Positions 20,601 through 47,751 of a stretch of DNA of 64,000 nt are shown piece after piece. The DNA comes from Methanococcoides methylutens (GTDB lineage Archaea; Halobacteriota; Methanosarcinia; Methanosarcinales; Methanosarcinaceae): positions 513,687-577,686 of the forward strand of contig NZ_JRHO01000014.1 in the NCBI RefSeq assembly GCF_000765475.1, written 5' to 3'. The number at the start of each line of letters is the position of its first letter. Position 1 is the stretch's first letter. Position numbers and translations under genes: made by a program. The notes under the pieces are model-generated. The model did not search any database and was not told where the DNA came from. It saw nothing but the letters and a program-made list of their open reading frames with translations.

Positions 20601-20833
20601 CCATACAGAAGGAAGTGTGTAATCATCAAAATATATAAAGCTTAGTGTTTTTATAACATAAAAAACCTTTAAAGAATAATTTTAAATCAATAAACATTAA
20701 ATATAAGTTTAAATTAAGCTATTTGCGTTAGTAATTAAAGTTATAAAAGTATATTAAACCGAATAAATATGGTTATTTTAATCGAAGCAATTTGAACCAT
20801 AAGAAGGTATTTTAAAAATAATCGGTGGCTGAT

Positions 20834-26856: not shown

Positions 26857-27633
26857 TTAAGTTTTTTGTTGTCTTTTTGCCATATAAACAGACATCAGCA
26901 CTCCGCTGACTGCTAATATCATTTCAAAACCAGGGACCTTTGGTTCAGACTCTTGGTTTTCAGAATCCTGAGATTCAGTATCATCTACAGGCTGTACCAC
27001 CGAATTATCCTCAGCGATCACATTTTCTATAACAATTTTACTTTCATTCCCTTCAGAAATTACCCCCGTTTCCTGCTCCACATCAGATACTTGTGGATTT
27101 ATTGAAGAAGAACTGCCAGAGAATGTATTGTCCGGGATACCAGTCGTTTTAGTAAGTGAAGAGGAAGCAGCAATAACAGTAAGTTGCGTATCACCAACAC
27201 CATTGTAACCAGCACTATTACTGCTATCCAAGTATCGACCTGCAAGATCATATACACCGACAACAGTGCCTGCACCTACATTGAGATCATATTTTACAGT
27301 ATAATCGCTTGCAGGAAGTGCTCCACTCATGAAATTGCGTGAAAAGTAGTGAATACCATTAGAATTTTGATGAGTATCCAGTTCTGGAGGACATTCTACA
27401 TTAGATACTGTCCAATCAGCCATTTCTGTTGCACTGTAATCTTCTACAAGTGCGTTTAAGCTTTCTTCATTCACATAATTTGTCAACTCAAGTGTTACAT
27501 GAACAGTTTCACCCGGACTCACCATTGTATCGCTCAAAGTTCTTGTCATTATAGGATCTGCAGCGGCAGGAGATAAAATTGTGACCAGCAGCATAAGTAT
27601 ACATATTACAAATTTGAATGTGTTTTTATTCAT
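26857..27633 (-). CDS. PGF-CTERM surface protein, short paralogue
   Basis: 258 residues. Signal peptide 1-25 (PAAADP cut region). Residues 26-165 form a beta-rich domain of unknown function that is closely similar to the N-terminal domain of the larger protein encoded just upstream on the same strand (shared TRTLSDT, VTLELTNYVNEE, SNVECPPELD, DTQLTV). A Ser/Glu-rich linker follows, then VPGFEMILAVSGVLMSVYMA and KRQQKT, a PGF-CTERM anchor. Extracellular, probably lipid-anchored. It looks like a duplication that lost, or never had, the PKD and DUF4430-like part. Confidence 0.8.
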   Translation of the reverse strand: MNKNTFKFVICILMLLVTILSPAAADPIMTRTLSDTMVSPGETVHVTLELTNYVNEESLNALVEDYSATEMADWTVSNVECPPELDTHQNSNGIHYFSRNFMSGALPASDYTVKYDLNVGAGTVVGVYDLAGRYLDSSNSAGYNGVGDTQLTVIAASSSLTKTTGIPDNTFSGSSSSINPQVSDVEQETGVISEGNESKIVIENVIAEDNSVVQPVDDTESQDSENQESEPKVPGFEMILAVSGVLMSVYMAKRQQKT

Positions 27634-30431: not shown

Positions 30432-31952
30432 ATGAAAAAATATAATAAAATAATATCCATAGGCATATTTGTGTTCATAACAATTATTGCATCCTGTACA
30501 CCAGTAATTGCATCTGACTGGATGACTTTCCTTAAAGACAACTCCAACACCGGCGTCACAGCAGACGAAGCACCAATCACCACCCCGGAAAATTCGGTGA
30601 GCTGGGCTAAAAAAGTAGGTTATGCCAATACTGCTCCAATGGTAGTCGGCAACAATATCTATGTTGCAAGCAAGCAAAATGTCTTAGCAATTGATAAGAT
30701 CACAGGAGATACCATCTGGCAATCTGACATGCATAATCTGGATATCATTGGAAACCCGGCATATGGTAACAACAAAATATTCATACCCACATCAAGTGGC
30801 TATATTTATACATTTGATGCTACAACCGGAGAAGAACTATGGAACATATCTGTAGGGAAGTCTAGATATCTCCTTTCACCTATAAAATATGAAGATAACA
30901 AAATATATTTTGCAGATAGTACAGACTGGAGTGGATCTGATGGTACATATTATTGCTATGATGAGACTGGAAACCAGATTTGGGCATACAGTTCCACAGC
31001 TTCTGGCAGCACTGGATATTACTTTGCAGGTGCAGCCTTAATAAATGACTATATAGTATTTGGCAATTCAAATGGGAATCTGACTTCCCTTTACAAGATC
31101 AACGGCACCACGGTTGATGAAGCAGATATTAGAACAATATGGGGTGATTCTGATGCATGTTTCATACGTTCATCCATGACATATAGTGAAAATAACAAAA
31201 GGCTGTACTTTACTTCCACAGAATCAGGCATGGAACCCGAAAAAGGTTATTGCTCTGCAATTGGATTTAATCCTAGCACAGGGACTTTCGACACTTCTGA
31301 TACAGTAAGAGCTTATATTGGGCCCACAACTTCAACGCCTGTAATTTTCAATAACAGGGTTTACGTTGGAAATGCAACTACATGGGGCTCAGCAACGGGA
31401 ACCGTGTTCTGCCTTGATGGAACAGATCTTTCGAAAATATGGACATTTACTCCGGAAGGAGATGCTAAATTCCAATCATCAGCTGCCATATCAACAAGAT
31501 ATGTCGATACTGACGGAAGCGTTTACATATACTTTACAAGCAATACCGCGGATGGAAGCCTCTACTGCCTGAAAGATTACGAAGGGAACACAAATCCGAT
31601 CCATAGATATACATATCTGCCTTCTTCCACAATGCAACAATTTACACTCGGAAGCCCGGTTATATCCGATGGAAGAGTATATTATACTAATAATGAAGTG
31701 GTAGGAAATGGTGGATACCTGTTCTCACTCGCAACAGCAGAATCTTTGGATCCGGACACTGTGGACTGGAACCCATGGAATGATCCTGATTCTGAAGGTA
31801 TGCCAGATGGAACATACATCACTTTAACAGAGGTAATCGATGCATACAACTGTTTCAGAAATGGAAAGCCTGCACCGATAACAGGAGCCAGTATCGACCT
31901 CACAAAAGTGATCGATATGTACAACAATTTCAGGTATTCCACATCGATGTGA
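30432..31952 (+). CDS. Secreted PQQ-type beta-propeller protein with dockerin-like module
   Basis: 506 residues. Signal peptide 1-27 (cut near VIAS/DW), the family opening DWMTFLKDNSNTGVT, and a single propeller to about 440 with blade motifs such as DKITGDTIWQ and DATTGEELWN. The dockerin-like module is 445-506. Blade sequences resemble the first propeller of the 951-residue protein (YYCYDE; GNLTSLYKINGTTVDE), so the two come from one ancestor. No anchor of its own. It ends at a hairpin terminator. Confidence 0.87.
   Translation: MKKYNKIISIGIFVFITIIASCTPVIASDWMTFLKDNSNTGVTADEAPITTPENSVSWAKKVGYANTAPMVVGNNIYVASKQNVLAIDKITGDTIWQSDMHNLDIIGNPAYGNNKIFIPTSSGYIYTFDATTGEELWNISVGKSRYLLSPIKYEDNKIYFADSTDWSGSDGTYYCYDETGNQIWAYSSTASGSTGYYFAGAALINDYIVFGNSNGNLTSLYKINGTTVDEADIRTIWGDSDACFIRSSMTYSENNKRLYFTSTESGMEPEKGYCSAIGFNPSTGTFDTSDTVRAYIGPTTSTPVIFNNRVYVGNATTWGSATGTVFCLDGTDLSKIWTFTPEGDAKFQSSAAISTRYVDTDGSVYIYFTSNTADGSLYCLKDYEGNTNPIHRYTYLPSSTMQQFTLGSPVISDGRVYYTNNEVVGNGGYLFSLATAESLDPDTVDWNPWNDPDSEGMPDGTYITLTEVIDAYNCFRNGKPAPITGASIDLTKVIDMYNNFRYSTSM
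31764..31952 (+). repeat. 189-bp dockerin-like module, copy 2
   Basis: Differs from the other copies at EGMPDG, RNGKPAPITG and YNNFRYSTSM. Confidence 0.9.
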
Positions 31953-32268: not shown

Positions 32269-34224
32269 ATGATCGAAACATTTAAAAAATCTAGCAAACT
32301 ATTTTGTTTTGGAATAGCCATAGCTATTCTGATAATGACTGCAAGCACAGCAGTAGCAGAAACTCCGGAAATGTATTTAGTAATAGAAGACGGTGCTGGA
32401 GATGGTAGCGGAGATTCATACTCCGAAGTGGTTAATGTCTACATGGCTAACACGGCAGAAGATCTTTATATTGATATTGAAATGGAAAATGGACCTTATA
32501 CTAATGCGTATATGAGCCTTCGCCCTGAATTCGACCTTGATATGAATTCTTCTACAGGTGATCAGGATTGGTCTTATACGTTTGGTGCTGACTATTCAGG
32601 TTCATTTGCTTTTATGCATGGTTATATGCGTCTGATCAATGAATCAAACGGTGAATACATAAGTATCCCTTATACAACTGAAGGATCCACATACAAGATA
32701 ATAATACCATTTTCTGAATTGGAAAACAAGAAATATTTTGGTTTTAAAGTTCACTGTAGCGCCCCAACTGGTGGAGATGAGACCCAGATTATTACATATC
32801 GTGACCAAACTTCATGGAACCAGTTCCTGAATAGTGCACAACATACCGGATCACCACTTCGCAGCGCTCCGGATACGAACAACATGCTATGGTCAGCCAA
32901 ACCGCTCAATGCAGATCAGTCATTGGTATCTGGCTCATCAGTAGCCATTGCTGAGGGAAAGGTCTTTGCAAATTGTGTTGGAGAAATTGATATGTACGGG
33001 AACCCACTAGGCGAAATTGGAGCTCTTGTTGCTTTTGATAAAGATACAGGAAAAGAGATATGGAATGCAACCATTGATGTTGCTGAATGGGGATCCTGGT
33101 CAGCACCAGCTTACAACGATGGAAAAGTATTCACCTCAACCGGACAGGATACAAACTGTATCGATGCTGCTACCGGTAATATTCTGTGGACATTCACAAA
33201 CCCTACCGGAGAAGCATCATGTAATGGAGGACCTGCAATAGCAGATGGTAAAGTAATATGCAGTGATTGGCAGGGAAATCACTATTATTGTCTTGATGAG
33301 AATACAGGTAACGAACTTTGGAATCATACCGTTAGCGGCAATGCTCAATCCACACCAGCGATCTTTGATGGAAAGATAGTTCTGACAGGCTGGAATGAGG
33401 TATACTGTCTGGACATGGATGGAAACCTTTTGTGGACAGTACCAAATCCTTCAAAATCAGGCAATCTTTGTGGAAGTCCTTCAATTTCTGATAGTAGTCA
33501 CCCGACTACACAGCTAACCGATTATATCAAGGGAGATTATGATTCCTATGGATATTCTATGGTCTACCTGACCACATATGATTTCTATGGAGATTCAAAC
33601 CCTGCATTATTCGCATTGAATTTAACTGATGGTAGCCAGATATGGAATGCAACCATACAGAGGACAGACAATACGCCCACAATTGCTTATGGTAACCTCT
33701 ATGTCAGCGGCGGATGTTCTGGATTTTCTGAAAGCCAAACATTTTGCTTTAACGCTACTAGTGGAGAACTTATCTGGAGTACAGCCAAAGAGATGAATGG
33801 AATTGGGGACTGGACATGTTCACCCACCGTAGCTGATGGAAAAGTATTCATTGGAAAGCCATCCGGGGCTTACGTGGGACAGAATGGACTCGTGGCACTG
33901 AATGCATTTACAGGAGAGATTATATGGGAATCTCCTAATGGAGGGGGAACTTCAGCTATTGCCGATGGTGTTGTCTACTCCATCGGAGGATCAGCAACAG
34001 ACGTTACACTGTATGCTTTTGGTGAAGAAACAGGAGATTGGAACCCATGGAACGATCCTGATTCAGAAGGATTGCCTGACGGGACATACATAACTTTGAC
34101 AGAGGTAATTGATGCATACAACTGTTTCAGAAATGGAACACCTGCACCAGGAACCGAAGCTAGCATAGATCTCACAAAAGTGATCGACATGTACAATGCA
34201 TTCAGATACGAATCCCCTATGTAA
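32269..34224 (+). CDS. Secreted propeller protein with N-terminal CBM9/DOMON-like domain and dockerin-like module
   Basis: 651 residues. Signal peptide 1-33. Residues 35-190 are a beta-sandwich-like domain (ENGPYTNAYMSLRPEFDLDMN; YKIIIPFSELENKKYFGFKV) reminiscent of CBM9/DOMON domains, which bind sugars or heme; this match is weak. The propeller runs 190-588, opening SWNQFLNSAQHTGS and closely resembling the second propeller of the 951-residue protein. The module is 590-651. It has its own terminator, 19 bases before the next gene. Confidence 0.85.
   Translation: MIETFKKSSKLFCFGIAIAILIMTASTAVAETPEMYLVIEDGAGDGSGDSYSEVVNVYMANTAEDLYIDIEMENGPYTNAYMSLRPEFDLDMNSSTGDQDWSYTFGADYSGSFAFMHGYMRLINESNGEYISIPYTTEGSTYKIIIPFSELENKKYFGFKVHCSAPTGGDETQIITYRDQTSWNQFLNSAQHTGSPLRSAPDTNNMLWSAKPLNADQSLVSGSSVAIAEGKVFANCVGEIDMYGNPLGEIGALVAFDKDTGKEIWNATIDVAEWGSWSAPAYNDGKVFTSTGQDTNCIDAATGNILWTFTNPTGEASCNGGPAIADGKVICSDWQGNHYYCLDENTGNELWNHTVSGNAQSTPAIFDGKIVLTGWNEVYCLDMDGNLLWTVPNPSKSGNLCGSPSISDSSHPTTQLTDYIKGDYDSYGYSMVYLTTYDFYGDSNPALFALNLTDGSQIWNATIQRTDNTPTIAYGNLYVSGGCSGFSESQTFCFNATSGELIWSTAKEMNGIGDWTCSPTVADGKVFIGKPSGAYVGQNGLVALNAFTGEIIWESPNGGGTSAIADGVVYSIGGSATDVTLYAFGEETGDWNPWNDPDSEGLPDGTYITLTEVIDAYNCFRNGTPAPGTEASIDLTKVIDMYNAFRYESPM
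34036..34224 (+). repeat. 189-bp dockerin-like module, copy 3
   Basis: Begins GATTGG rather than GACTGG. Variable residues: RNGTPAPGTEAS and RYESPM. Confidence 0.9.
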
Positions 34225-34306: not shown

Positions 34307-36040
34307 ATGATCACTAAATTGAAAATACCTTATCTAAAGACTTTTATTTTCTGTGCCATACTCCTTCTTTCAACATTGCCAATGGCATCAGCAAACATTT
34401 CAGATGAAGATCCGGATGTTTTCTGGACACAGTTCCAGCATAATGCATTGAAAACAGGTACTACATACTCTTCCGCACCATATTCGGACCCGGCAGTACT
34501 ATGGAGAGGAACTACGAACCCGTCACAATCTGCTGTCAGTGTCACGCCGGTGATAACAGATGAAATGGCATACATACTCATATCAGGAGGAAATGTATGT
34601 GCTTACAATAAGACCAGCGGGGATCTTGTCTGGAGCTCAGGAACAAAGGACGGATCACTTCAAACATCGATCCCGGCCTATGGAAACGGAAAAGTGATTG
34701 TTGCTGTGAACGATCATTATAACAGCGGTTACCTTTTCGCTTTTAATGCAACTAATGGTGACGAACTCTGGAACGTTTCAGTAACAGAAGGGAATTTTGC
34801 ATGTCCTGTGACATATTTCGACCATCGCATATATGTTGCAGATGGGCTTAAAGGTGGAATTTCCACAAAATATTATTACTGTTATGATGACAACGGAAAC
34901 CTACTCTGGAAACATGCAAACAATGATACTGCGGGCTTCCTCTGGTGTGGTGCTTCAATTGTTGAAGATTACATTATCTATCCAACCCATGAAGGAAAGC
35001 TTGTCAGCCTTTACAGGACCAACGGGACATTTGTCGATGAAGTAGATATTACAACAGACCTTTCATTCTCCAAACCGGATCTGGGAAGGATAAGAGCATC
35101 GGTTTCTTACAGTGACGGATATATATACACGACTTCAGAAGATACATTCACAGAAGGTTATATCTGGAAAGTTGGATTTGACCCTGTAAATGGAGTTTTC
35201 ATCGATGATGGGTGGGGTATCAGGCGAGGATTCAGCACATCAACCCCGGTAGTACACGATGGAAAAGTCTATGTGGGTCAGGGAGAGCATGGATATACAG
35301 GCGATCTTACATGTCTTAACGATTCAGATGGCAGCCTGTTATGGTCATATCCTACAGATGCAGGAGTAAAATGTTCACCTGTGATATCAATACAGAAAAA
35401 TTCCGCATACGTGTACTTTACAGGTGCAAAGACTAACAGTAGTCTCTATTGCGTGGATCAGGACGGACAGCTTGCATGGCAGTATAATCCACTTGATGAT
35501 TATGGATATATCCTGCAGGGAGCTGCCATATCTGACGAAAAGGTCTTTTTCGGAACAGATGGAGGATATCTTTATTGTCTTGAAGAAGCCCCACACGAAC
35601 CACCTATACCGGATTTTACTGCAGATCCCACATCAGGATATGACAAGCTTTCTGTTGATTTCACCGACCATTCAACGAATTATCCAACCTCATGGAACTG
35701 GGATATGGATAATGACGGTATCATTGATCATACTGATCAAAACCCGACACATTACTATGATACTTCTGGCGTTTATACCGTGACCCTCAACGTTAGTAAT
35801 GTCTATGGTAACAATATTCTCTCAAAAACTGACTACATTGTTGTGGAAGCGGACTGGAACCCCTGGAACGATCCAGATTCTGAAGGATTGCCTGACGGGA
35901 CATACATCACTTTAACAGAGGTTATCGATGCGTACAACTGTTTCAGAAATGGAACACCTGCACCAGGAACCGGATCTATTATAGACCTTACAAAAGTGAT
36001 CGATATGTACAATGCATTCAGATATGAAAATCCGATATAA
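34307..36040 (+). CDS. Secreted propeller protein with PKD domain and dockerin-like module
   Basis: 577 residues. Signal peptide 1-29 (cut near PMASA). Propeller about 38-425 with opening FWTQFQHNALKTGTT; PKD domain 431-515 (SWNWDMDNDGIIDH; SGVYTVTLNVSN); dockerin-like module 516-577. The PKD plus module arrangement is the same as at the end of the 866-residue protein further downstream. It starts 19 bases after the previous gene's terminator, and AATGTGGTGGT lies before the ATG. Confidence 0.87.
   Translation: MITKLKIPYLKTFIFCAILLLSTLPMASANISDEDPDVFWTQFQHNALKTGTTYSSAPYSDPAVLWRGTTNPSQSAVSVTPVITDEMAYILISGGNVCAYNKTSGDLVWSSGTKDGSLQTSIPAYGNGKVIVAVNDHYNSGYLFAFNATNGDELWNVSVTEGNFACPVTYFDHRIYVADGLKGGISTKYYYCYDDNGNLLWKHANNDTAGFLWCGASIVEDYIIYPTHEGKLVSLYRTNGTFVDEVDITTDLSFSKPDLGRIRASVSYSDGYIYTTSEDTFTEGYIWKVGFDPVNGVFIDDGWGIRRGFSTSTPVVHDGKVYVGQGEHGYTGDLTCLNDSDGSLLWSYPTDAGVKCSPVISIQKNSAYVYFTGAKTNSSLYCVDQDGQLAWQYNPLDDYGYILQGAAISDEKVFFGTDGGYLYCLEEAPHEPPIPDFTADPTSGYDKLSVDFTDHSTNYPTSWNWDMDNDGIIDHTDQNPTHYYDTSGVYTVTLNVSNVYGNNILSKTDYIVVEADWNPWNDPDSEGLPDGTYITLTEVIDAYNCFRNGTPAPGTGSIIDLTKVIDMYNAFRYENPI
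35852..36040 (+). repeat. 189-bp dockerin-like module, copy 4
   Basis: Variable residues: RNGTPAPGTGSI and RYENPI. Confidence 0.9.
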
Positions 36041-36900: not shown

Positions 36901-39900
36901 ATGAATCAATTAAAAAAACCCAACACGGTAAAAATTTTTGTTGGGATGTTGCTTGTAATGTTATTAATACCAGCAGCATCTGCAACGGATTGGAGTTCTT
37001 TTCAAGAGGACAACTACAATAAAGGATTGACATCAGACAAAGCTCCTATAACCGATCCATATGGAAACGGCATCTCATGGGAGAGCTCGTATACACTCGG
37101 AAGCTCATGGTCAGGTTTCGATAATGCACCTCTGGTAATAGGTAACATTGTATACGTGGCCGGTGACGATAACAGGTTACGGGCACTGTACAAGACCAAC
37201 GGCACTGAAAAATGGGTGACCGCCACAAGCGGTGGCCGCGTGCTCGGAAACATGGCTGCAGGCAACGGCAGTATATTTGTTCCGACCAGCGATGGAAAGG
37301 TGTACGCTATCGATATGAACACAGGTGTTGAGCAGTGGCGGGCAATTGAATCAGGTCAACTGATCACTCCTGTGGTCTATGAAGACAATAAGATATACTT
37401 CGGTAGCTGGGAAAGCAAGAAATATTATTGCTACCACGACAACGGAACAATGTGTTGGAACCGCACTTCTACCAGTGGGGACGGTTACTACTGGGCAGGT
37501 GCTGCGATAGTAGGCGATTACCTGATCTATGGAGACGATGCTGGCGTCCTAACTTCCGTGTATAAAGTTGATGGCACCACTAAGGACACGCTGGACGTAT
37601 CCACTGAATTTGGCGTCACGGCAAATCAGATCAGGTCATCCATCAATTATGTTGAGGATCTGGAACGCATATACTTCACATCCAAAGGCGGCTATATATA
37701 CGCTCTCGGTATGAATCCGGACGGAACCTTCAATACCGCTGACAAGGCTAATGCAAACATCGGTTACAGCACATCCACACCTGCTGTCTATAACGGCAAG
37801 GTGTATGTCGGTAGCAGCAGCTACTTTACCTGCCTTTTCGCAAACGATCTTACGATGGACTGGTGTTTTTCAGTAGATGGACAGATCCAGTCATCCCCTG
37901 TGATCAGTACGGCATACGATGACGGTGATGGCGAGATCTATATCTACTTCACCGAGAACTGGGGAGGAGTAGGCGTACACTGCCTCAACGAAAATGGAGT
38001 TGAGCAGTGGTCCTGGGGTCCGACTGCAAAGACGGAGTTTACCCTGGCCGGTGTGGCAATATCGGACGGCTGGATCTTCTTCGGCACCGATGCCGATTAT
38101 GTGTTCGGATTTGCAACAGATGAGTCACTGCGTGAACCCATAATGCTCAACCCGGGAGATTCCCTGCAGGAAGCGATCTATGGTGCAAACAACGGTGACA
38201 CCATCATGATGGCACCGGGTACCTACAGTGTCTCGTACATAAACAAGAGTGACCTGACCTTCATGGCTGACGGCGGTGAAGTTATCATAACAGGTGGCTC
38301 CAGCATTGCTTTTGGCCTGGCAGACGCAGATGATACTATAGGTTGCGATGCTTCAGGAATAACTTTCAACGGAATTACTTTTAGTGGTTTCAACATGTTA
38401 GTCAAAGACCTTGACTACCCGAAGCCCAATCAGATTGTTAACAATCTGACATATGATGGATGTACATTCTCTGGCAATGATTATTTGTATCTGTATGATG
38501 ACTCAGCTGTACTGGGTTGTACAGTCGATGATCTTGGTCTCAGGGTGTATGGAGACAATGTAAGATTTGAGGACAACATAGGTAGCGCTGGAAGCATAGG
38601 TGACGGGAAAACATGCTCTGGTTTAATCGTAAGGAACAACTCGATCAGTTCATTTGGTATATCCGTAACTTATTCAGAAATGTTAATGGAAGACAATGTT
38701 TTTGAGGCGATTTCGAGTCTTTCCTCCAATGAGGCGGCTATTATTCATGATAATGTGTTCGCCAACAGCAGTGAGTATTTAGATATGGGTGGGCAGGTTT
38801 ACGAGAATACATTTTTGAGTTGTACTATGCTTTCAGGTTCTTACTATACGTCTGGATCTTACTACCTCAATAACTTCATAGACTGCGGCACTATATATAT
38901 GTGTGATTGCGATACGAGTGCTGAAGATATTGGAATTTATAACACGTCCACACCAGTAACCTACACCTATGGCGGTGCAAGTTACACCGGCTATCTCGGC
39001 AACTACTACTCCGAGTATGCAGGCAGTGATGCCGATGGCGATGGCGTTGGTGATAATCCAGTCTCATCCACAAGTACTTTTAGTGAGACTAGCGGTGTTG
39101 ATTCCTATCCACTCATGGGTGCATGGGACGTCGCAACTGACACGATTGAAGAACCGGAAATAGTTCCACAGCCACCTGAAGCCCCCACAGCTTTAGAATG
39201 TTCAGGGGTTGACAGATGCGTATGTCTTAGCTGGGATACACCTGCAAGCGATGAAGCAATAACTTCATTCAATGTTTACAGGGCTACCATTTCAGGAGCA
39301 GAAACACTGTACGAAACAGTTTCTGCAGACACAACTGTATTCGCAGATCATGACGTTACCAACGATCAGACATACTACTATCAGGTAAGTGCTGTCAGCA
39401 GCATTGGAGAAGGAGATATTTCAACAGAGATCACCGGTACGCCTGTTGCAGAGGTTATCAGTGACAGCTGGGAACACTTCATGGGAGATCTGCAGCACAC
39501 AGGATACTCTACTACACCCGGACCTAAGACCAACAATACTATCTGGGAATCAGCAGACATCGATGCAGAAGATGGTGCATCAATCACTATTGCTGATGAT
39601 CTTGGGCTTATGTTCGTGATCAGTGATGCAAAGGAAAGTTCATGGTCCACTGACGGCTATAACAACCTTTCAGCCATCAACCTTGAAGATGGTTCAGTGG
39701 TATGGGATGTCACATTCGGAAATGGTGACAATTACAATTCCATGGATTCATGGTCCACTCCTGCCTACCACAACGGTATTGTATTCACAGCCGGTGATGG
39801 TGCAAGATATGCCAACAACGGTACCCTCAAATGGGGATCACTTCCAATGAACACTAACGGAGGTCCTCTTGTTGCTGAAGGCAAGGTCATTGTGGGCAAC

Positions 39901-41217
39901 TGGGACGGAAAACAGTACTTCTGCTTCGACGAGGAAACAGGAGCTGAGCTCTGGAATATCTCTGTGAATGGAAATGCACAGGGCACCCCTGTTTACAACG
40001 ACGGCCACATGATCCTTACCTCATACGAAGAGGTTAACTGCGTTGACATGGACGGTAATGTGCTATGGACCCAGGCAATTGCTCAAAGTGTCTGTGGTTC
40101 AGCAAGCATACAATATGATAATGTCTACATTACGATCTACGATATGAACTACGGTGCTCAGTACGTATATGCACTGGACGAGTCCACAGGTAATATCGTA
40201 TGGCAGGCAACCATGTCCAATCAGATGATGATGGGTACAGACTGCACACCAGCAGTTGCATATGGATATGTATATGTCACTGCCGGTATGGCTATGATCG
40301 ACCAGAACACCTACTGCTTCGATGCTTTCACAGGAGATAGCGTCTGGGCATCCAGTGAAACTGGATCCTGGTTCACATCACCTGTAGTCTCTGACGGTGT
40401 TGTATATGCAGGCGCAGAGGATTATTTCTCCGGTGCCGGTGGCATGGGATCCTTCACACGCACAGTTGCACTGGATGCATTTGATGGAAGCCTGATCTGG
40501 GAATCTGATGTTGGTGGTTCAACACCGGCACTCTATGATGGAGTACTCTATACAGTAGGCTTCCAGAAAGTGTATGCATTTGGACCAGGTCTTTCCCTGG
40601 TACCCGAAGATGCTTCCGTGATCAAGGGGCAGCAAACCCAGATCAGGATCATGGCAAGCGAATTCCCTGATGGTCTTTCCGGTTACAATCTGACCATCGA
40701 TATTGCCGATCCGGCTGTTGCCGAGATCGTAGATATTGATATTCCTGAATGGGCTACGCTCAATGATTCTTCTTCCATGCCCGGAGCTTCCGTTTTCCTG
40801 AGGGCTGTTGACAGTGGAAAAGGTGTTCAGGCAGGAGCACAGGATGTTGTACTTGCAACCCTTACGGTCTCAGGAAACAGCGTTGGTTCCACGGATCTTG
40901 TTCTTGGCGTTGAAAGGCTGGACGATGACAATGGTGATCATATCGATATGGTTCTTTCAGCAGGAACTCTTGAAGTTATTATGACACCGATACCGGGTGA
41001 GACCATGTCACCACAGGATCTTGACGGTGACGGATGCTATGAAGACCTGACCGGAAACGGCGATTGCAGTTTCGCGGATGTCGTGCTCTTCTTCCATGAG
41101 ATGGAGTGGATCGAGGCAAATATGCCTATGGGATACACTGATTTCAACGGAAACGGCAGGATCGACTTTGACGATGTCATAAAGCTGTTTGACATGGTGG
41201 GCCCTGTGGGACAATAA
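36901..41217 (+). CDS. Giant secreted protein: two propellers, beta-helix, Fn3, cohesin-like domain and canonical dockerin
   Basis: 1438 residues, the largest gene here. Signal peptide 1-28; first propeller 29-405 (DWSSFQEDNYNKGLT); right-handed beta-helix of the NosD/pectin-lyase type 410-735 (PGDSLQEAIYGANNGDTI); Fn3 domain 757-850; second propeller 855-1225 (SWEHFMGDLQHTGYS). The cohesin-like domain is 1231-1360 (FPDGLSGYNLTIDIADPAVAEI). A C-terminal pair of Ca-binding dockerin loops is 1371-1438 (DLDGDGCYEDLTGNGDCSFADV and DFNGNGRIDFDDVIKLF patterns). Unlike the other propeller proteins it lacks the 62-residue module. Cohesin plus dockerin in one chain is the design of an adaptor scaffold. 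Base composition is somewhat more G/C-rich than its neighbours. Confidence 0.85.
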   Translation: MNQLKKPNTVKIFVGMLLVMLLIPAASATDWSSFQEDNYNKGLTSDKAPITDPYGNGISWESSYTLGSSWSGFDNAPLVIGNIVYVAGDDNRLRALYKTNGTEKWVTATSGGRVLGNMAAGNGSIFVPTSDGKVYAIDMNTGVEQWRAIESGQLITPVVYEDNKIYFGSWESKKYYCYHDNGTMCWNRTSTSGDGYYWAGAAIVGDYLIYGDDAGVLTSVYKVDGTTKDTLDVSTEFGVTANQIRSSINYVEDLERIYFTSKGGYIYALGMNPDGTFNTADKANANIGYSTSTPAVYNGKVYVGSSSYFTCLFANDLTMDWCFSVDGQIQSSPVISTAYDDGDGEIYIYFTENWGGVGVHCLNENGVEQWSWGPTAKTEFTLAGVAISDGWIFFGTDADYVFGFATDESLREPIMLNPGDSLQEAIYGANNGDTIMMAPGTYSVSYINKSDLTFMADGGEVIITGGSSIAFGLADADDTIGCDASGITFNGITFSGFNMLVKDLDYPKPNQIVNNLTYDGCTFSGNDYLYLYDDSAVLGCTVDDLGLRVYGDNVRFEDNIGSAGSIGDGKTCSGLIVRNNSISSFGISVTYSEMLMEDNVFEAISSLSSNEAAIIHDNVFANSSEYLDMGGQVYENTFLSCTMLSGSYYTSGSYYLNNFIDCGTIYMCDCDTSAEDIGIYNTSTPVTYTYGGASYTGYLGNYYSEYAGSDADGDGVGDNPVSSTSTFSETSGVDSYPLMGAWDVATDTIEEPEIVPQPPEAPTALECSGVDRCVCLSWDTPASDEAITSFNVYRATISGAETLYETVSADTTVFADHDVTNDQTYYYQVSAVSSIGEGDISTEITGTPVAEVISDSWEHFMGDLQHTGYSTTPGPKTNNTIWESADIDAEDGASITIADDLGLMFVISDAKESSWSTDGYNNLSAINLEDGSVVWDVTFGNGDNYNSMDSWSTPAYHNGIVFTAGDGARYANNGTLKWGSLPMNTNGGPLVAEGKVIVGNWDGKQYFCFDEETGAELWNISVNGNAQGTPVYNDGHMILTSYEEVNCVDMDGNVLWTQAIAQSVCGSASIQYDNVYITIYDMNYGAQYVYALDESTGNIVWQATMSNQMMMGTDCTPAVAYGYVYVTAGMAMIDQNTYCFDAFTGDSVWASSETGSWFTSPVVSDGVVYAGAEDYFSGAGGMGSFTRTVALDAFDGSLIWESDVGGSTPALYDGVLYTVGFQKVYAFGPGLSLVPEDASVIKGQQTQIRIMASEFPDGLSGYNLTIDIADPAVAEIVDIDIPEWATLNDSSSMPGASVFLRAVDSGKGVQAGAQDVVLATLTVSGNSVGSTDLVLGVERLDDDNGDHIDMVLSAGTLEVIMTPIPGETMSPQDLDGDGCYEDLTGNGDCSFADVVLFFHEMEWIEANMPMGYTDFNGNGRIDFDDVIKLFDMVGPVGQ

Positions 41218-41279
41218 GATAAAAAAATGTAGAATAAGCAGTTGAAGAATAAAAAAAGAAGAGAAGTGAAAGAAGAGAT

Positions 41280-41332
41280 AAGGGAATGAAAATGAATATT
41301 ATTAAATTCCCTTTATTCCCTTCTTTCCATCT
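41280..41332 (+). terminator. Terminator after the giant scaffold gene
   Basis: AAGGGAAT and ATTCCCTT arms around an 18-base A/T loop, followed by TATTCCCTTCTTTCC. Long loop, so moderate support. Confidence 0.45.
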
Positions 41333-41403
41333 TCTTTTGTATTTTTTACAACTGTCACAGAAAGCATTTGATGATAAAATATAACGTATTTTAAGGTGAT
41401 ACA

Positions 41404-42213
41404 TTGAAAAATAGATATGGAATTATCGCATCGATTTTTTTAGTTTTTACCCTCATTTTTTCAACCGGTATCTGCATGGGGCTTGCAGGAGCATCTTCCT
41501 CCCTTGTTATCGAACCTTCAGACCAGATATCCCTTGAAGCAGGGGAAACCATGGAACTGTCCCTGAGTGTGGACGAGTTACCCGACGGGCTTATGGGCTA
41601 TTTTCTGACAGTGGAACTGGATGATCCTGACGTTGCCCGGATCGAGAACGTTGACTTCCCTGCATGGGCAAGCCCGAATGACATGTCAGAACTTCCCGAT
41701 TCCTCCGTGTGGCTGAAGGCAGCAGACCTTCAATTTGCCGTAGGAGAAGGAGCTAAAGACACTGAACTTGCAACCCTCACATTAAAGGGAATGGAGGGCG
41801 GCTCTACAGGGATTACGGTAACGATATCCAGGCTGGATGACGAGTCTGAAAACGCGATCATACTCGAAAAAGCGGAATATCCGGAAGAAGAGGAGGAAGA
41901 GGAAACCGGAGATGAAAATCCACCTGCTGATGAGAGTTTCGAATCTTCAAGATCCACAGATCAAAGGAGTAGTTCTAAGGTCGAAATATCGGAAGATGCA
42001 GAATCCGAAAATCCAGAAGAAAGTCAGGATGAAAACTCAGAAAATCAGGTGACGTCCCAAAACCCGGAAACAGAGTCAATTGAAAACGCAAATGTTGAAG
42101 TGGAAGATACCGGTGGAAATACACTCCCAGGGTTCGGATCTGCCCTTTCAGCATCAATTTTCGTGATCATGGGGATTGTCAGTAGAAGATCGACTAAACT
42201 CAGGAGAAAATAA
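41404..42213 (+). CDS. PGF-CTERM-anchored cohesin-like protein (anchoring scaffoldin candidate)
   Basis: 269 residues starting at TTG, supported by AGGTGAT three bases upstream and no suitable ATG. Signal peptide about 1-30; one cohesin-like domain about 33-155 (LPDGLMGYFLTVELDDPDVARI; SSVWLKAADL; ISRLDDESENAI); a long Glu/Ser/Asn-rich linker 158-240; then LPGFGSALSASIFVIMGIV and RRSTKLRRK, a PGF-CTERM anchor. This is the architecture of a bacterial anchoring scaffoldin, with archaeosortase lipid anchoring in place of SLH or sortase. It is followed 14 bases later by a propeller gene that also has a cohesin-like domain. Binding of the dockerin-like modules is inference. Confidence 0.82.
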   Translation: MKNRYGIIASIFLVFTLIFSTGICMGLAGASSSLVIEPSDQISLEAGETMELSLSVDELPDGLMGYFLTVELDDPDVARIENVDFPAWASPNDMSELPDSSVWLKAADLQFAVGEGAKDTELATLTLKGMEGGSTGITVTISRLDDESENAIILEKAEYPEEEEEEETGDENPPADESFESSRSTDQRSSSKVEISEDAESENPEESQDENSENQVTSQNPETESIENANVEVEDTGGNTLPGFGSALSASIFVIMGIVSRRSTKLRRK

Positions 42214-42227
42214 GTGGAGATAAATTC

Positions 42228-44828
42228 ATGGTAAAATTACAGAGAAAACAAACAGGAAAAAAGTTGACACCCGGCAGGTGGTCAGTAAAGGCTAGCATCA
42301 CAATCCTCTTGCTCCTGTTCTGTCTTGGAACCGGTATGGCTGCGGCTCAGGAGATCTACTTTGAACCCGGAGACACGACCCTTGCCGGGGTGGGCCAAAC
42401 AGAAGCACTGAACTTCTACCTTGACCAGTTACCTGCCGGGCTTTCCGGTTATAATCTCACCCTTGGCATAAGCGATCCTTCAGTTGCCAGAATAACAGGA
42501 GTCGAATTCCCTGACTGGTCAGGCACACTACATACGAACTCACAACTTCCAGCAAATTCAATTTGCATCAAAGCTATCGACCTGAACAAAAATGTGAATG
42601 CCGGAGATGCAAATATCCTACTGGGCACGGTGACCGTAGAATCCCTTGCTATTGGGGAAGGGAACATCACGGTATCGATCAACCGTCTGGAAGATGATAA
42701 CGGAAATACATTCCCCGTAGATATCAGGGAAGCAAAAATGTCAGTAATGGACACAGTCGTTGAGCCTAATGGAATACGAAGCATTGAGCCTAATTCTATT
42801 GAGCCGGAAAATGCCTTTACGGTGACTGTTGTACTCTCCGCAGGTGATACGGATGTCGAATCCATATTGCTGGAAGAAAAACTTCCGGATGGATGGACAG
42901 TAACACCTGTCCGGAATGACGGTATGAGTTACTCAATAACAGGTGATCTGCATACCTGGCATGAAACTTCGAATATACTTGAATCTGGAAGCAGTAAAAC
43001 AATAGTCTATGATGTTACCGTACCGGCTGAAACAAGTGGTGGGATCTATAATATTGATGGCTGGTTTTCCGCATATGAAGCGAATAAATTCCCATTGGTG
43101 TATCATCACAACGAAGTCAGCGGTGAAAACACAGTAGAGGTTATCGGCGAGCAGATATTCACTTCCACAGACTGGCCCCTGATCGGCAAAGGCCTGTACA
43201 ACAACGCAGTCACAAGCGACAGGGCACCGATACAGGAACCAAATGATTCAGGATCCTGGTCCACCATGACCCAAGGGGCAGGATTTTCCGGAATAGATGT
43301 ACACCCCCTTGTAGTTGGAGATCTGGTTTATGTGACAACACCGAGTTCCGTATTTGCAGTTGACAGGAACACAGGAGAGATCGAATGGCAAAATGATATT
43401 ATCGAAGGTGCCACCGCTCCTCTGGGAACCCCGGCTTATGGTAATGGGAAATTGTTTGTTACTGCTTTTAGTAAATTATATGCCTATGACGCCATATCAG
43501 GTAATGAGCTATTGAACGTTACTATTGATAGTGAAAACCAGGAATTTACACAGATGAATACTCCTGTTATGTATGAAGATGGCAGGATCTTCTTTGGTGA
43601 ATGGATCCCCTATGGCGAGTATAACCGCAAATACTATTGCTATAATGAAGACGGCACTCTGGAATGGACCTATGTTACTCCTACCGGCAAGGGCTATTAC
43701 TGGGCAGGTTCTGCGGTTGTAGGAAGGTATCTGGTCTTTGGGGACGATGCTCTCCACCTAACATCACTGGACAAATATGACGGAGAAGTTGTTGATGAAA
43801 TAAATGTTTCTGAATTATTGGAAATTGGATACAACGGTGAAAGGGAAGAGATCAGGAATTCCATAACATATAGTCCTGATACGGGACGTATATATTCTGC
43901 CTCCGAAGCTGGGTATTGCTTCTCCATTGGTTTTAATGTAGATGGTACATTCAATACAGCAGATGCTCAGAAATCCTATATAGGAAAAAGCACATGCACC
44001 CCAACTATTTACAATGGCAGAGTATATGTCGGCACAGGCACTCACACAGGAACCGGTGATGTATATTGCCTGAACGAAGAGGATCTCTCGGAAATCTGGA
44101 AGTACACTCCAAACGGTGGTGTACAGGGCTCTCCGGTAATATCAACTGCTTATGATGACGGAGATGGGGAAGTATACATCTACTTCACCACAAATGTCTT
44201 GGATGCAAGGGTCTATTGTCTAAAAGATTATACAGGCAATACTGTGCCTGAACTTCAATGGTATTACGAGGCCCCACCTGAAAAGAATGAATACACACTA
44301 CATGGTGTCACTATAAAGGACGGACGTATATTCTACGGCAATGATCGGGGTTATTTATTCGGGCTTTCCGATGTTGGAAACAATATAGTAACTCCGCCAG
44401 AAGCCAACTTCAGCTCTGATCTGGTTTCCGGATATGCACCGCAGACCGTCCAGTTCACCGACCTGTCCACAGATGCTGCAGGCTGGTCCTGGGATTTTGA
44501 CAACGACGGGATCGAGGATTCCATCGAGCAGAACCCACAGTTCACTTATACAGCTCCTGGAACATACACAGTGAGCCTCACCGTGAACAACGCAGCAGGT
44601 AGTGACACCGAGACCAAGATAGACTACATCGCTGTCAATGACTGGAACCCATGGAATGATCCTGATTCTGAAGGACTTCCAGATGGAACATACATCACTT
44701 TAACAGAGGTGATTGATGCATACAACTGTTTCAGATATGAAACACCTGTACCGGAATCTGGAACGAATATCGATTTTACAACTGTGATCGATATGTATAA
44801 TGCATTCAGATATGGAAATCCGATGTGA
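42228..44828 (+). CDS. Secreted protein: cohesin-like domain, propeller, PKD, dockerin-like module
   Basis: 866 residues, ATG preceded by GGAGAT. Signal peptide 1-41. The cohesin-like domain is 42-175 (LPAGLSGYNLTLGISDPSVARI). A beta-domain of the DUF11/NEW3 kind is about 178-310. The propeller is 315-715 (DWPLIGKGLYNNAVT; close to the first propeller of the giant protein), PKD 724-803 (WSWDFDNDGIEDS), dockerin-like module 805-866. With an interaction domain at each end it could link partners in a chain. Co-transcribed with the anchored cohesin-like gene 14 bases upstream. Confidence 0.86.
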   Translation: MVKLQRKQTGKKLTPGRWSVKASITILLLLFCLGTGMAAAQEIYFEPGDTTLAGVGQTEALNFYLDQLPAGLSGYNLTLGISDPSVARITGVEFPDWSGTLHTNSQLPANSICIKAIDLNKNVNAGDANILLGTVTVESLAIGEGNITVSINRLEDDNGNTFPVDIREAKMSVMDTVVEPNGIRSIEPNSIEPENAFTVTVVLSAGDTDVESILLEEKLPDGWTVTPVRNDGMSYSITGDLHTWHETSNILESGSSKTIVYDVTVPAETSGGIYNIDGWFSAYEANKFPLVYHHNEVSGENTVEVIGEQIFTSTDWPLIGKGLYNNAVTSDRAPIQEPNDSGSWSTMTQGAGFSGIDVHPLVVGDLVYVTTPSSVFAVDRNTGEIEWQNDIIEGATAPLGTPAYGNGKLFVTAFSKLYAYDAISGNELLNVTIDSENQEFTQMNTPVMYEDGRIFFGEWIPYGEYNRKYYCYNEDGTLEWTYVTPTGKGYYWAGSAVVGRYLVFGDDALHLTSLDKYDGEVVDEINVSELLEIGYNGEREEIRNSITYSPDTGRIYSASEAGYCFSIGFNVDGTFNTADAQKSYIGKSTCTPTIYNGRVYVGTGTHTGTGDVYCLNEEDLSEIWKYTPNGGVQGSPVISTAYDDGDGEVYIYFTTNVLDARVYCLKDYTGNTVPELQWYYEAPPEKNEYTLHGVTIKDGRIFYGNDRGYLFGLSDVGNNIVTPPEANFSSDLVSGYAPQTVQFTDLSTDAAGWSWDFDNDGIEDSIEQNPQFTYTAPGTYTVSLTVNNAAGSDTETKIDYIAVNDWNPWNDPDSEGLPDGTYITLTEVIDAYNCFRYETPVPESGTNIDFTTVIDMYNAFRYGNPM
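44640..44828 (+). repeat. 189-bp dockerin-like module, copy 5
   Basis: The most divergent copy: RYETPVPESGTNIDFTTVIDM and RYGNPM, while the first half is unchanged. Confidence 0.9.
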
Positions 44829-44937: not shown

Positions 44938-46281
44938 TCACAACTCATTCTTACCAAGTTCCAGCCACCTCAAGAAAGTAGCTGAAGACACAGTATCCCC
45001 AAGCCCCACAGTGGACACCGGCTTTTCACAGATAATGGTCGGAAGGACACACACAGAAAACTCCCTGTATTCCCCACATATGCCACCCTCGAACTCATCA
45101 CCATGGATGAGGTCCTGCATTTTACCTGCCTGTATCATTCCTTCTTCACTTCTGGCAAGACCACTAACAGAATCTTCAAGTTGTGACCGCTCAGGCAGTT
45201 CCCCTGATGCTGCAAAAGCTGCCGCACACATAACGCCGAACTGCATGCTCTCCACCTCACGAACCGGGCTGGAAGCCCCTTCTGCAAAAATACTCATCAT
45301 GAAGTTACGGGTATGAAGGACGATCTTCTTCAAGCCCGTTGATGAAGCACACCTCACACAGGCATCGAGGATCGCACAGGCATCCATTTTCCGTACCATG
45401 TCCGATGGAACACCATGCAGTTCAGAAAGCATGACCAGTTCATCCTCGTTCATTCCAATGCTATCCACCGTACCGGCAAGTTCGTTGAAGATGGACACCC
45501 CCATTTCCATGCTCATGAAATGACCCAGTTCAACATGGATGGGGAGATCAGGATTGAGTGCTTTCCAATCCTTTAATTGCGAATGTGCCTTTTCAAAGCG
45601 TTCGGAATAACCGGAACCGTCAGGATAGCTTTTCTGCAACTGGTTGAAACCGGAAATGATAGCCCCATCCATCCCACATACATGGTCACGGCTGTACTCT
45701 TCGAACTCATGAGTGATAGTCAGCTCAGTATTGATATCATCATACGTGGCAATGAAACGGTTTTCTCTGGGCACTATTACCTCTGTGCCAAAAAGATCGA
45801 AACGAGTTCCACTACTAAAATCAAAAACAAAGTGGATTATCTCATTCCCATCCTTGGAAATTGAAGCATCCTGTACAGACTCACCTGAAAAAACAATGTT
45901 CCCGCCTGACATCAATGGCCTTATTGCACCGATATCACCAACTGCATTCATGACGACCTGCTCTGCACCCATATGGGACATGACGTTTGCCATTATCCCC
46001 ATATTACCCCCCAGGCGGACCTCGCTTTTATCGTAATAACGGCCTTTCAGGAAACGGAAAAAATCATCCGAATGAATGAACCACTCCCCGCCTGTGCCCT
46101 GATGCATGTGCAGCACAAGTCCTGCCACAAGATCGGAAAGGGATCTGATCTCTACCGGAGTATCAAAGATCTTTTCCACCAGCTCCTTCTTATCCACCAG
46201 ATCCACCAGGTCAGAGATCTCTTCGGCGGTCATTCGGTACACGGCATCGATGTTAACATTATATCCGCAAAGGACCTTCAT
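44938..46281 (-). CDS. ADP-dependent sugar kinase paralogue (ADP-PFK/GK family)
   Basis: 447 residues. Family features: N-terminal GYNVNIDAVYRM, RLGGNMGIMANVMSHMGA near 90, the Mg-binding region PIHVELGHFM near 245, and the catalytic GLGD in STVGLGDTVSSA near 425. ADP-dependent kinases phosphorylate glucose or fructose 6-phosphate with ADP as donor. It lies 9 bases after the typical ADP-phosphofructokinase gene and is clearly its paralogue, about 40 residues shorter. The catalytic Asp is kept, so it is probably active, but the substrate is not evident; a different sugar or nucleoside is possible. Confidence 0.85.
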   Translation of the reverse strand: MKVLCGYNVNIDAVYRMTAEEISDLVDLVDKKELVEKIFDTPVEIRSLSDLVAGLVLHMHQGTGGEWFIHSDDFFRFLKGRYYDKSEVRLGGNMGIMANVMSHMGAEQVVMNAVGDIGAIRPLMSGGNIVFSGESVQDASISKDGNEIIHFVFDFSSGTRFDLFGTEVIVPRENRFIATYDDINTELTITHEFEEYSRDHVCGMDGAIISGFNQLQKSYPDGSGYSERFEKAHSQLKDWKALNPDLPIHVELGHFMSMEMGVSIFNELAGTVDSIGMNEDELVMLSELHGVPSDMVRKMDACAILDACVRCASSTGLKKIVLHTRNFMMSIFAEGASSPVREVESMQFGVMCAAAFAASGELPERSQLEDSVSGLARSEEGMIQAGKMQDLIHGDEFEGGICGEYREFSVCVLPTIICEKPVSTVGLGDTVSSATFLRWLELGKNEL

Positions 46282-46290
46282 GCAAATCCC

Positions 46291-47751
46291 TCACTTAAGC
46301 TTAGAAAGAAATCCCACAAATGAAGCCGCAGAGATAGCATCTCCAATACCCACGGTTGCAACAGGTTCACTTACCACCTTTGTCGGGACAATGATCGCAT
46401 CATACCATGGAGTGCAGATACATCCGTTTTCGAAATCCTCCATGCTGGACATACCGCTTCTTACAAGGTGTTTCTCAAGCTTTTCAAGCTCCCCATGCCC
46501 TTCGTCGGATACAGGAACCTTAAGACCTGACTCCGTACTTTCCAGGGAAAGGATCTCACCCAGGGATGCCTTTGCAGCTGCAACCGTTGATCCGAACAAC
46601 AGGGCATTGCGATGGTCCTCAACGGATACCGGGCATTCCTTCGATACAAGACAGATATAAAACCCAAGGGAATGGATGTGCACCCTTTCAAGTTTAAGGT
46701 CTCTCAGGAGCTTCACCGCACCCTCGTAAAGGGAAATGATAGCATTCTCACCCTTATTGATGACAGAATAGGCCAGCTCCTCAAAACCGAGAACATTAAG
46801 TGCATTGGCAACCTCAACGGTATCAAGTCCAAGGGAATGCACATGCTTCCGGACGATATGGTTGAGTATTGCCGTCCTGATCACCTTGTTCTGTATCGAG
46901 GTGAATTCCACATGTATACGGATGTCAGGATTGCCCTCCTTGAGCTCTTCGATGACACTTACGGCCTTCTCGACATAGTCCATATAGGTGGAACCGTCTT
47001 CATATTCTTCCCTTATCATCTGATAACCTGCAAGTATGGCACCGTCAATGTTCGCTTTCAACTGAGGTATCTTTTCGTAAAGCTCAGGATCCATCTCGAT
47101 ACGTATCCAATTTGGGCGGGAAGAGATGATAAGACGATTATCCCTTGGAATGACAAAATGCTCTCCCGCGAACTTCACCTCCATTCCCTTTGAGAATTCC
47201 AGTATCCAGTTGACCTTTGGACTGTTATCGGGATCAAATGCCTCTTTTGGATGCTTTAGAACAAGCTCCCCGTTTTCCACCACAGGAAACAGCAGGTTCT
47301 CAGAATCAACAAAGTACTCTGCCTGCTCCTCAGAAAGCCATGGTACATAGGTAATGACCTTTTCAACTCCCATGGATGCAAGAAGATTGGAGATAATTCC
47401 TGCCTGCCCACCCATTCGTGCAGAATCAAAGACCAGATGGTCAGTAAGCCAGTCATGGATGTCGGTCGTATTAGTTGGCACCTCTGCAGCCTTTCCATCA
47501 CGCATAGCGATGATAAGTCTTGCAACAAGATCAGAAGGAGAATCTATCTGGCGCGGATACTCGAAAACCTTCTCCCGCACCTCTGAGATATCCACATTCA
47601 TCAGCAGATGCTCAATATCCTCCGCGCCGATGTGCTTGACGGCATCGATATTGCTGTTATATGCAACAAATATTCCCCTGACATTTCCAATAGACGAAAG
47701 AATGTCCTCATAGGACTTATGATAAACAGAATCCCACTCCCTTATTTCCAT
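46291..47751 (-). CDS. pfkC: ADP-dependent phosphofructokinase/glucokinase
   Basis: 486 residues, family-typical length. Conserved segments are VAYNSNIDAVKHI, RMGGQAGIISNLLASMGV near 116, RIHVEFTSIQNK near 273, and the catalytic GIGD in ATVGIGDAISAA near 466. It makes fructose 1,6-bisphosphate from fructose 6-phosphate with ADP in the archaeal modified Embden-Meyerhof pathway; glucokinase activity is also known in this family, so specificity is inferred. GGTGATC precedes the ATG. Other enzymes of this pathway in the window (pgk, class II FBPase) lie in separate units. Confidence 0.9.
   Translation of the reverse strand: MEIREWDSVYHKSYEDILSSIGNVRGIFVAYNSNIDAVKHIGAEDIEHLLMNVDISEVREKVFEYPRQIDSPSDLVARLIIAMRDGKAAEVPTNTTDIHDWLTDHLVFDSARMGGQAGIISNLLASMGVEKVITYVPWLSEEQAEYFVDSENLLFPVVENGELVLKHPKEAFDPDNSPKVNWILEFSKGMEVKFAGEHFVIPRDNRLIISSRPNWIRIEMDPELYEKIPQLKANIDGAILAGYQMIREEYEDGSTYMDYVEKAVSVIEELKEGNPDIRIHVEFTSIQNKVIRTAILNHIVRKHVHSLGLDTVEVANALNVLGFEELAYSVINKGENAIISLYEGAVKLLRDLKLERVHIHSLGFYICLVSKECPVSVEDHRNALLFGSTVAAAKASLGEILSLESTESGLKVPVSDEGHGELEKLEKHLVRSGMSSMEDFENGCICTPWYDAIIVPTKVVSEPVATVGIGDAISAASFVGFLSKLK

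Follow-up and report, generated by a model that had tools for sequence, protein, structure and literature searches.

Introduction

The closest described systems are the anchoring scaffoldins of bacteria, which are attached to the cell surface through SLH modules or by sortase, as stated in excerpts of PMC12484212. Archaeal genomes, those of ANME among them, have been surveyed for the numbers of their cohesins and dockerins, without a worked-out assembly. The excerpts of PMC9012536 and PMC5244752 contain no description of an archaeosortase-anchored cohesin, and the listings of the literature on scaffoldins or dockerins of methanogens, Methanosarcina and Methanococcoides hold nothing on an anchored cohesin. 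Archaeal proteins with a PGF-CTERM tail are cleaved and then lipid-anchored according to excerpts of PMC8875312 and PMC11641113, and a 50-residue spacer that joins an S-layer protein to the membrane is described in the latter excerpt.

The window analyzed here is a stretch of 64,000 nucleotides of the genome of Methanococcoides methylutens. The original prediction was that the gene at 41404-42213 follows the logic of an anchoring scaffoldin, and this is upheld by the predicted cohesin fold of its product, by an archaeosortase (ArtA) encoded in the genome, and by a dockerin-like module that tracks the cohesin across genomes and ends the upstream gene. On sequence comparisons and structural models, it is likely that the anchored cohesin is an archaeal surface socket resembling an anchoring scaffoldin, which would dock the upstream product (36901-41217) by its dockerin-like module. 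The features on which this reading is built, including the propeller proteins that end in a module named WNPW, are the following:

36901 to 41217, plus strand: upstream gene, 1438 aa, with PQQ-type propellers and NosD/beta-helix-like, fn3-like, cohesin-like and dockerin-like parts (domain scans, profiles)
40603 to 40950, plus strand: cohesin-like module at residues 1235-1350 of the upstream product (profile, predicted fold)
40957 to 41199, plus strand: dockerin-like module at residues 1353-1433 of the upstream product, with a pair of F-hand repeats; its family has no other copy in the genome (alignment, profile)
41248 to 41347, plus strand: imperfect inverted repeat between the upstream and anchor genes, arms 41248-41278 and 41317-41347, 71% complementary
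41393 to 41400, plus strand: ribosome-binding site AAGGTGAT, 3 nt before the TTG (read in the sequence)
41404 to 42213, plus strand: anchored-cohesin gene, 269 aa, TTG start (open reading frame list, alignment, purifying selection)
41404 to 41496, plus strand: predicted N-terminal hydrophobic signal sequence, residues 1-31 (hydropathy alone)
41500 to 41868, plus strand: module with a predicted cohesin fold, residues 33-155, of which the profile covers 37-154 (profile, AlphaFold2, Foldseek, VIA)
41869 to 42123, plus strand: acidic flexible linker, residues 156-240 (composition, pLDDT about 40-60, Ka/Ks 0.58 and indels)
42124 to 42210, plus strand: PGF/hydrophobic/basic tail, PGF codons at 42127-42135 (read in the sequence; Ka/Ks 0.195; without a profile match)
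42228 to 44828, plus strand: downstream gene, with N-terminal cohesin-like, NEW3-like, propeller, PKD and C-terminal WNPW parts (scans, profiles)
42363 to 42719, plus strand: cohesin-like module at residues 46-164 of the downstream product (profile)
44643 to 44825, plus strand: WNPW module of the downstream product; co-occurrence does not link it to the cohesin (profile)
20825 to 23689, 30432 to 31952, 32269 to 34224, 34307 to 36040 and 42228 to 44828: WNPW-ended propeller proteins (profile)

Start, layout and selection of the anchor gene

The layout proposed for the anchor gene is fully recovered in the 269-residue reading frame, in which a signal sequence, a single binding domain, an acidic linker and a PGF/hydrophobic/basic tail follow each other. 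The domain limits given at the outset, residues 33-155, agree closely with the family profile match. The linker has 85 residues, 35% of them D or E and four K or R. In the profile search, the protein joins a cohesin to surface attachment and has no dockerin-like match of its own.

The start had been proposed to be a TTG served by a strong ribosome site, and the site found 3 nt upstream has an equivalent in relatives: a TTG preceded by (A/G)AGGTGAT is common to all seven Methanosarcinaceae anchor proteins compared, that of the window included. This arrangement is kept at 41404 and in the orthologs of L054 (M. seepicolus), L034, L035, L036, L037 and L039. For the anchor genes of G123 and G061, the conserved TTG is the inner one and not that of the longest frame. 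No in-frame ATG occurs before codon 25, which lies beyond the signal sequence, and an ATG-only caller would therefore truncate the gene and lose the signal, in line with the expectation that automated callers may misplace this start. The conserved TTG may hint at a limited expression of the anchor. An inverted repeat similar to the one that precedes the gene is also present in L054.

Comparison with the M. seepicolus ortholog gives an overall Ka/Ks of 0.30, indicating purifying selection. By part, the values are 0.19 for the cohesin, 0.58 with indels for the linker, and 0.195 for the PGF tail. Constraint on the cohesin and the tail with a looser linker is what would be expected of a folded module and a functional tail that are joined by a spacer.

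Predicted fold of the binding domain

The Pfam and NCBIfam scan names no cohesin in the anchor protein. PF00963 gives no match to it at E<=1 and none at 0.01, and phmmer and profile searches of the PDB with the module found no cohesin. Within the family, Pfam cohesin matches occur in two of 38 members, below threshold and with a best E of 2.8e-4; the anchor protein of G123 reaches 20.8 bits, the cut-off being 24.1. The AlphaFold2 model of the anchor domain (14 rows) has a pLDDT of about 76-93 over most of the domain, and cohesins are its top Foldseek matches (best E 7.8e-7). In the VIA comparison, the predicted domain matches Clostridium perfringens cohesins with Z 13.4 over 127 residues at 2.9 A, and cohesins or cohesin-like modules fill the top 45 of the 50 matches listed; the lower ones include non-cohesin beta-sandwiches, with Z 9.4-9.8. 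The homologous module of the upstream protein reaches Z 14.6 to cohesins, also as a predicted fold. Given that cohesins lead the matches of the predicted fold, the anchor domain has, on its model, a cohesin fold and belongs to a divergent family that is not filed under PF00963. Since their cohesin falls outside the Pfam profile, anchor-type cohesin proteins would escape annotation based on PF00963.

A tree was built from 55 of 71 cohesin modules, with six of the 22 G132 dyads kept. The anchor and downstream cohesins are grouped in it (90/95), apart from the dyad cohesins (94/92); both forks are drawn open, and class-level monophyly of these groups is therefore not claimed.

The tail and its likely processing

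The assignment of the tail to PGF-CTERM stood in part. The tripartite pattern is there, with PGF, a hydrophobic stretch (hydropathy 2.0) and a basic end, and ArtA is encoded in the genome (TIGR04125, E 4.6e-84, 281.9 bits against a cut-off of 75); the profiles TIGR04126 and PF18204, on the other hand, gave no match to this tail at E<=10. One or both of these profiles match three other PGF tails within the window. The window has three PGF-tailed proteins besides the anchor, at 23947-24972, 26857-27633 and 27973-29982; by eye, the first resembles an ABC substrate-binding protein of the metal/cobalamin type. Six of the seven Methanosarcinaceae anchor proteins compared retain the PGF triplet, and a PGF-pre-PGF domain precedes the end of the G123 and G061 orthologs (E 2e-55 and 2e-53). 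We infer, on the strength of its tripartite pattern, the ArtA gene, the constraint on the tail and the PGF-pre-PGF orthologs, that the window protein would be cleaved by ArtA and anchored through a lipid.

Relatives outside the Methanosarcinaceae mostly have a plain transmembrane helix as anchor. The protein of G043 ends in Dockerin_1 (3.8e-9) in place of an anchor. Since the anchors vary between PGF tail, PGF-pre-PGF and transmembrane helix, and one relative is dockerin-ended, the tail looks like an exchangeable localization part. The dockerin-ended form is seen at L040 8184-9116, where the positional homologue of the anchor gene has a canonical Dockerin_1 end and no membrane anchor; judged by its sequence, it is a natural adaptor. 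The use of the S-layer spacer described in the excerpt of PMC11641113 is like that proposed here for the anchor linker.

The neighboring genes

A profile search finds three copies of the cohesin family in the genome, all of them in three consecutive genes. In the alignment, the dockerin-like module that ends the first of these has two repeats, of which the second keeps the canonical loop spacing. Of the 20 members of the dockerin-like family, 17 are matched by Dockerin_1 at E<=1 (best 9.9e-8), and the window module alone scores 16.5 bits, under the cut-off of 22.9. Its AlphaFold2 pLDDT is about 40-60, and the fold matches cover residues 1-133 of the model only. A reading of the X-Doc type, in which the upstream cohesin would merely stabilize the adjacent dockerin, was considered less likely because a PKD-like stretch of about 90 residues separates the two modules in L057.

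The downstream gene begins 14 nt past the anchor gene, and its product carries no dockerin of the cognate family. Further on, at 44938-46281 and 46291-47751 on the minus strand, two adjacent related genes resemble, on visual inspection, ADP-dependent sugar kinases in tandem.

Elsewhere in the genome, three canonical cohesins exceed the PF00963 cut-off. Two genes 19 nt apart (L132 3125-4988, contig about 98124-99987) encode a 218-residue protein with cohesin and dockerin (Coh-Doc), and then a cohesin followed by PGF-pre-PGF and a C-terminal hydrophobic stretch. The third canonical cohesin (L134) looks by eye like the anchored protein of L132, and a dockerin-bearing beta-helix/PKD/CBM9-like protein is encoded at L131. 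The claim that the protein under study is the only anchored one with a cohesin thus holds for the window, where it is one of three cohesin reading frames; in the genome as a whole it is not the only one, two canonical cohesins with C-terminal parts of the PGF-pre-PGF type lying elsewhere, the second of them judged by eye. The canonical pair is alike in having a Coh-Doc gene followed by an anchored cohesin gene; it differs in that its cohesins exceed the PF00963 cut-off and its Coh-Doc protein is a bare adaptor of 218 residues without propellers. Read from its genes, the genome is one that repeats the order of Coh-Doc and anchored cohesin with two different cohesin types.

Co-occurrence and gene pairing in related genomes

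The distribution of the two families was followed in 149 genomes of the order, a dockerin match with E<1e-15 being taken as strong. By profile search, the cohesin family is present in 17 of these genomes, and the dockerin-like family in 21 at E<=0.001, with 17 strong. Sixteen of the 17 cohesin genomes have a strong dockerin and 16 of the 17 strong-dockerin genomes have the cohesin (Fisher 2e-19 over the 149 genomes, uncorrected for phylogeny). The exceptions are G059, where the cohesin is accompanied by a weak dockerin hit only (3e-4), and G097, which has the dockerin without the cohesin. Neither family is present in eight other genomes of the genus, and the system is thus, by gene content, accessory in the genus.

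Gene order is also shared. The succession of Coh-Doc, anchored cohesin and N-terminal cohesin is found in M. seepicolus, twice in G132 and once in G140, and G123 and G061 hold the first two genes of the trio. In L045 and L049, which are of the Methanosarcina type, a long PGF-tailed protein carries the cohesin, and the dockerin is encoded by a neighboring gene of its own. The two are likewise on separate genes in L046-L048, where the PGF end was not found.

G132 carries two anchors and over 20 Coh-Doc proteins. Its Coh-Doc dockerins (22 of 23 loci) have a mean identity of 95.5% and a minimum of 89%, and the accompanying cohesins 86%; the dockerin identity suggests homogenization. Fifteen of the 23 loci lie within 55 kb of either of the two anchor genes. 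The clusters, at about 5.218-5.314 Mb and 2.109-2.156 Mb, each contain Coh-Doc genes with near-identical dockerins and one anchor gene. The other domains differ among the Coh-Doc proteins scanned (one of G132, two of G123, one of G140), which carry propellers and PKD, LRR, or CARDB and FG-GAP.

Across the phylum, the cohesin family occurs in 97 of 392 genomes. Fetched stretches of 63 genomes were inspected, 57 from among those 97 and six from the order. Within these stretches, a short cohesin protein (<=450 aa) with a C-terminal hydrophobic anchor is found in 25 of the 63 genomes and was not found in 38. It lies less than 1 kb from a same-strand dockerin gene in 20 of the 25 genomes, and this neighbor also carries a cohesin in 19 of the 20; for five of the 25, the fetched stretch shows no dockerin gene. 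When limited to best-hit regions, the count is 17 of 63. A hydrophobic C-terminus is present in 27 of 37 short dockerin-less cohesin reading frames versus 47 of 312 background frames, in four of 30 longer dockerin-less ones, and in none of 54 with both cohesin and dockerin, the last count being partly so by construction because the dockerin occupies the C-terminus.

From co-occurrence and adjacency, we infer that the dockerin-like family would be cognate to the cohesin. Together with the split gene pairs, these patterns of sequence fit a receptor and its ligand. The upstream product (36901-41217) is most likely the partner of the anchor cohesin, and is the best supported one by these comparisons.

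Proposed mechanism

In the mechanism proposed, ArtA would cut the tail and the protein would be fixed to the membrane by a lipid, or else be held there by a transmembrane helix. The acidic stalk would carry the cohesin outward from the cell, where it would bind, in a calcium-dependent manner, the dockerin-like module, with its two repeats, that ends the upstream product. This exported propeller protein would thereby be held on the cell, and given that it carries a cohesin of its own, it could present a further docking site. The downstream product, with its N-terminal cohesin, would be a further acceptor or an adaptor.

It is possible, if rather doubtful, that this describes a two-gene display unit used in several families of the phylum. 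Chains would then start at a single anchored cohesin, with no multi-cohesin scaffoldin, and each Coh-Doc protein would both dock and offer a cohesin. Propeller, PKD or LRR proteins would be displayed in a heterogeneous order, and the tail (archaeosortase tag, transmembrane helix, or a second dockerin type as in L040) would be exchangeable. In other families of the phylum, three and two tandem family cohesins are encoded beside an anchored cohesin gene at L082 8036-10285 and L087 1485-4868, respectively; by domain content, these tandem-cohesin proteins are scaffoldin-like.

Alternative readings

The failure of both PGF-CTERM profiles on the window tail, and the plain transmembrane helix with which relatives outside the family mostly end, would also suit a socket that is simply anchored by a transmembrane segment, without archaeosortase processing. 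We regard this as unlikely, given the PGF triplet in six of seven Methanosarcinaceae proteins, the low Ka/Ks of the tail (0.195), the ArtA gene and the PGF-pre-PGF domain on two orthologs. The identity of the ligand can also be read differently, with the anchored cohesin as a receptor for the WNPW-ended propeller proteins. Five of these are encoded in the window, one of them just downstream of the anchor gene, and WNPW is found in 11 of 17 cohesin genomes versus 20 of 132 others (Fisher 3e-5), with both families clustering in one taxonomic family. The module, of 61 residues and C-terminal, shows by eye two repeated helix-like halves, and on that impression its repeats could be a degenerate dockerin; it has no Pfam match, its best PDB match is no better than E 0.48, and hhalign gives a probability of 3.9% for a relation to the dockerin-like family. 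It occurs in 31 of the 149 genomes of the order, with about 20 copies in one genome and two in some reading frames. Twenty of the 31 lack the cohesin family, among them genomes with 15, 8, 7 and 6 copies, and a genome of the same genus has six copies and no cohesin of the family. Judged from this distribution, WNPW is probably not what the anchor cohesin was made for, and a WNPW receptor seems improbable. Of the propeller proteins originally named as partners, the one at 36901-41217 is retained, with its cognate dockerin-like module, and the WNPW set is not.

It could further be argued that the module serves a surface protein only as an Ig/cohesin-like structural spacer, with no dockerin as ligand. 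The Pfam cohesin profile fails on the window protein, non-cohesin beta-sandwiches appear among the lower VIA matches, and for five of the short anchored cohesins the fetched stretch shows no dockerin. There is little probability in this reading when set against the near-perfect co-occurrence and adjacency with the dockerin-like family, and against the gene pairs of L045 and L049, which place cohesin and dockerin on separate proteins. The authors of the ANME genome papers propose, in the excerpts of PMC5244752 and PMC9012536, a role in cell-to-cell contact, and the socket might by analogy work between cells, holding dockerin proteins of neighbors or partner species in adhesion and not only its own. 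This appears very unlikely here, the cognate dockerin being encoded next door in the same genome, so that no second cell is needed.

Comparison with known systems

The cohesin of Archaeoglobus fulgidus (PDB 2xdh) is, like the present module, archaeal and non-cellulosomal and of the same fold as predicted here (VIA Z 12.6, 117 residues, 2.1 A); it differs in sequence, with 13% identity over the 117 aligned residues. The ANME proteins with cohesins and dockerins, as described in the excerpt of PMC9012536, are also archaeal surface proteins, some with several cohesins and a dockerin; a single-cohesin protein anchored by archaeosortase or a transmembrane helix and paired with a Coh-Doc gene is not described in that excerpt. 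The locus differs from a cellulosome in that the four window proteins scanned have no glycoside-hydrolase catalytic family among their Pfam matches at E<=1. The conserved pair of anchored-cohesin and Coh-Doc genes would amount to a minimal receptor-ligand system, accessible to tests in a methanogen.

The closest likeness is to the bacterial anchoring scaffoldins, namely ScaE of Ruminococcus flavefaciens (LPXTG) and SdbA, OlpA and ScaF of Clostridium thermocellum (SLH). These share with the predicted socket one or a few cohesins, a linker, surface attachment, and genes that are encoded with dockerin-bearing partners, and the cohesins of SdbA, OlpA and ScaE figure among the fold matches of the anchor domain. 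The differences lie in the cohesin, which here is outside PF00963; in the presumed cargo, which is a propeller protein and not an enzyme scaffold; and in the attachment, for which an archaeosortase-type or transmembrane tail takes the place of LPXTG or SLH.
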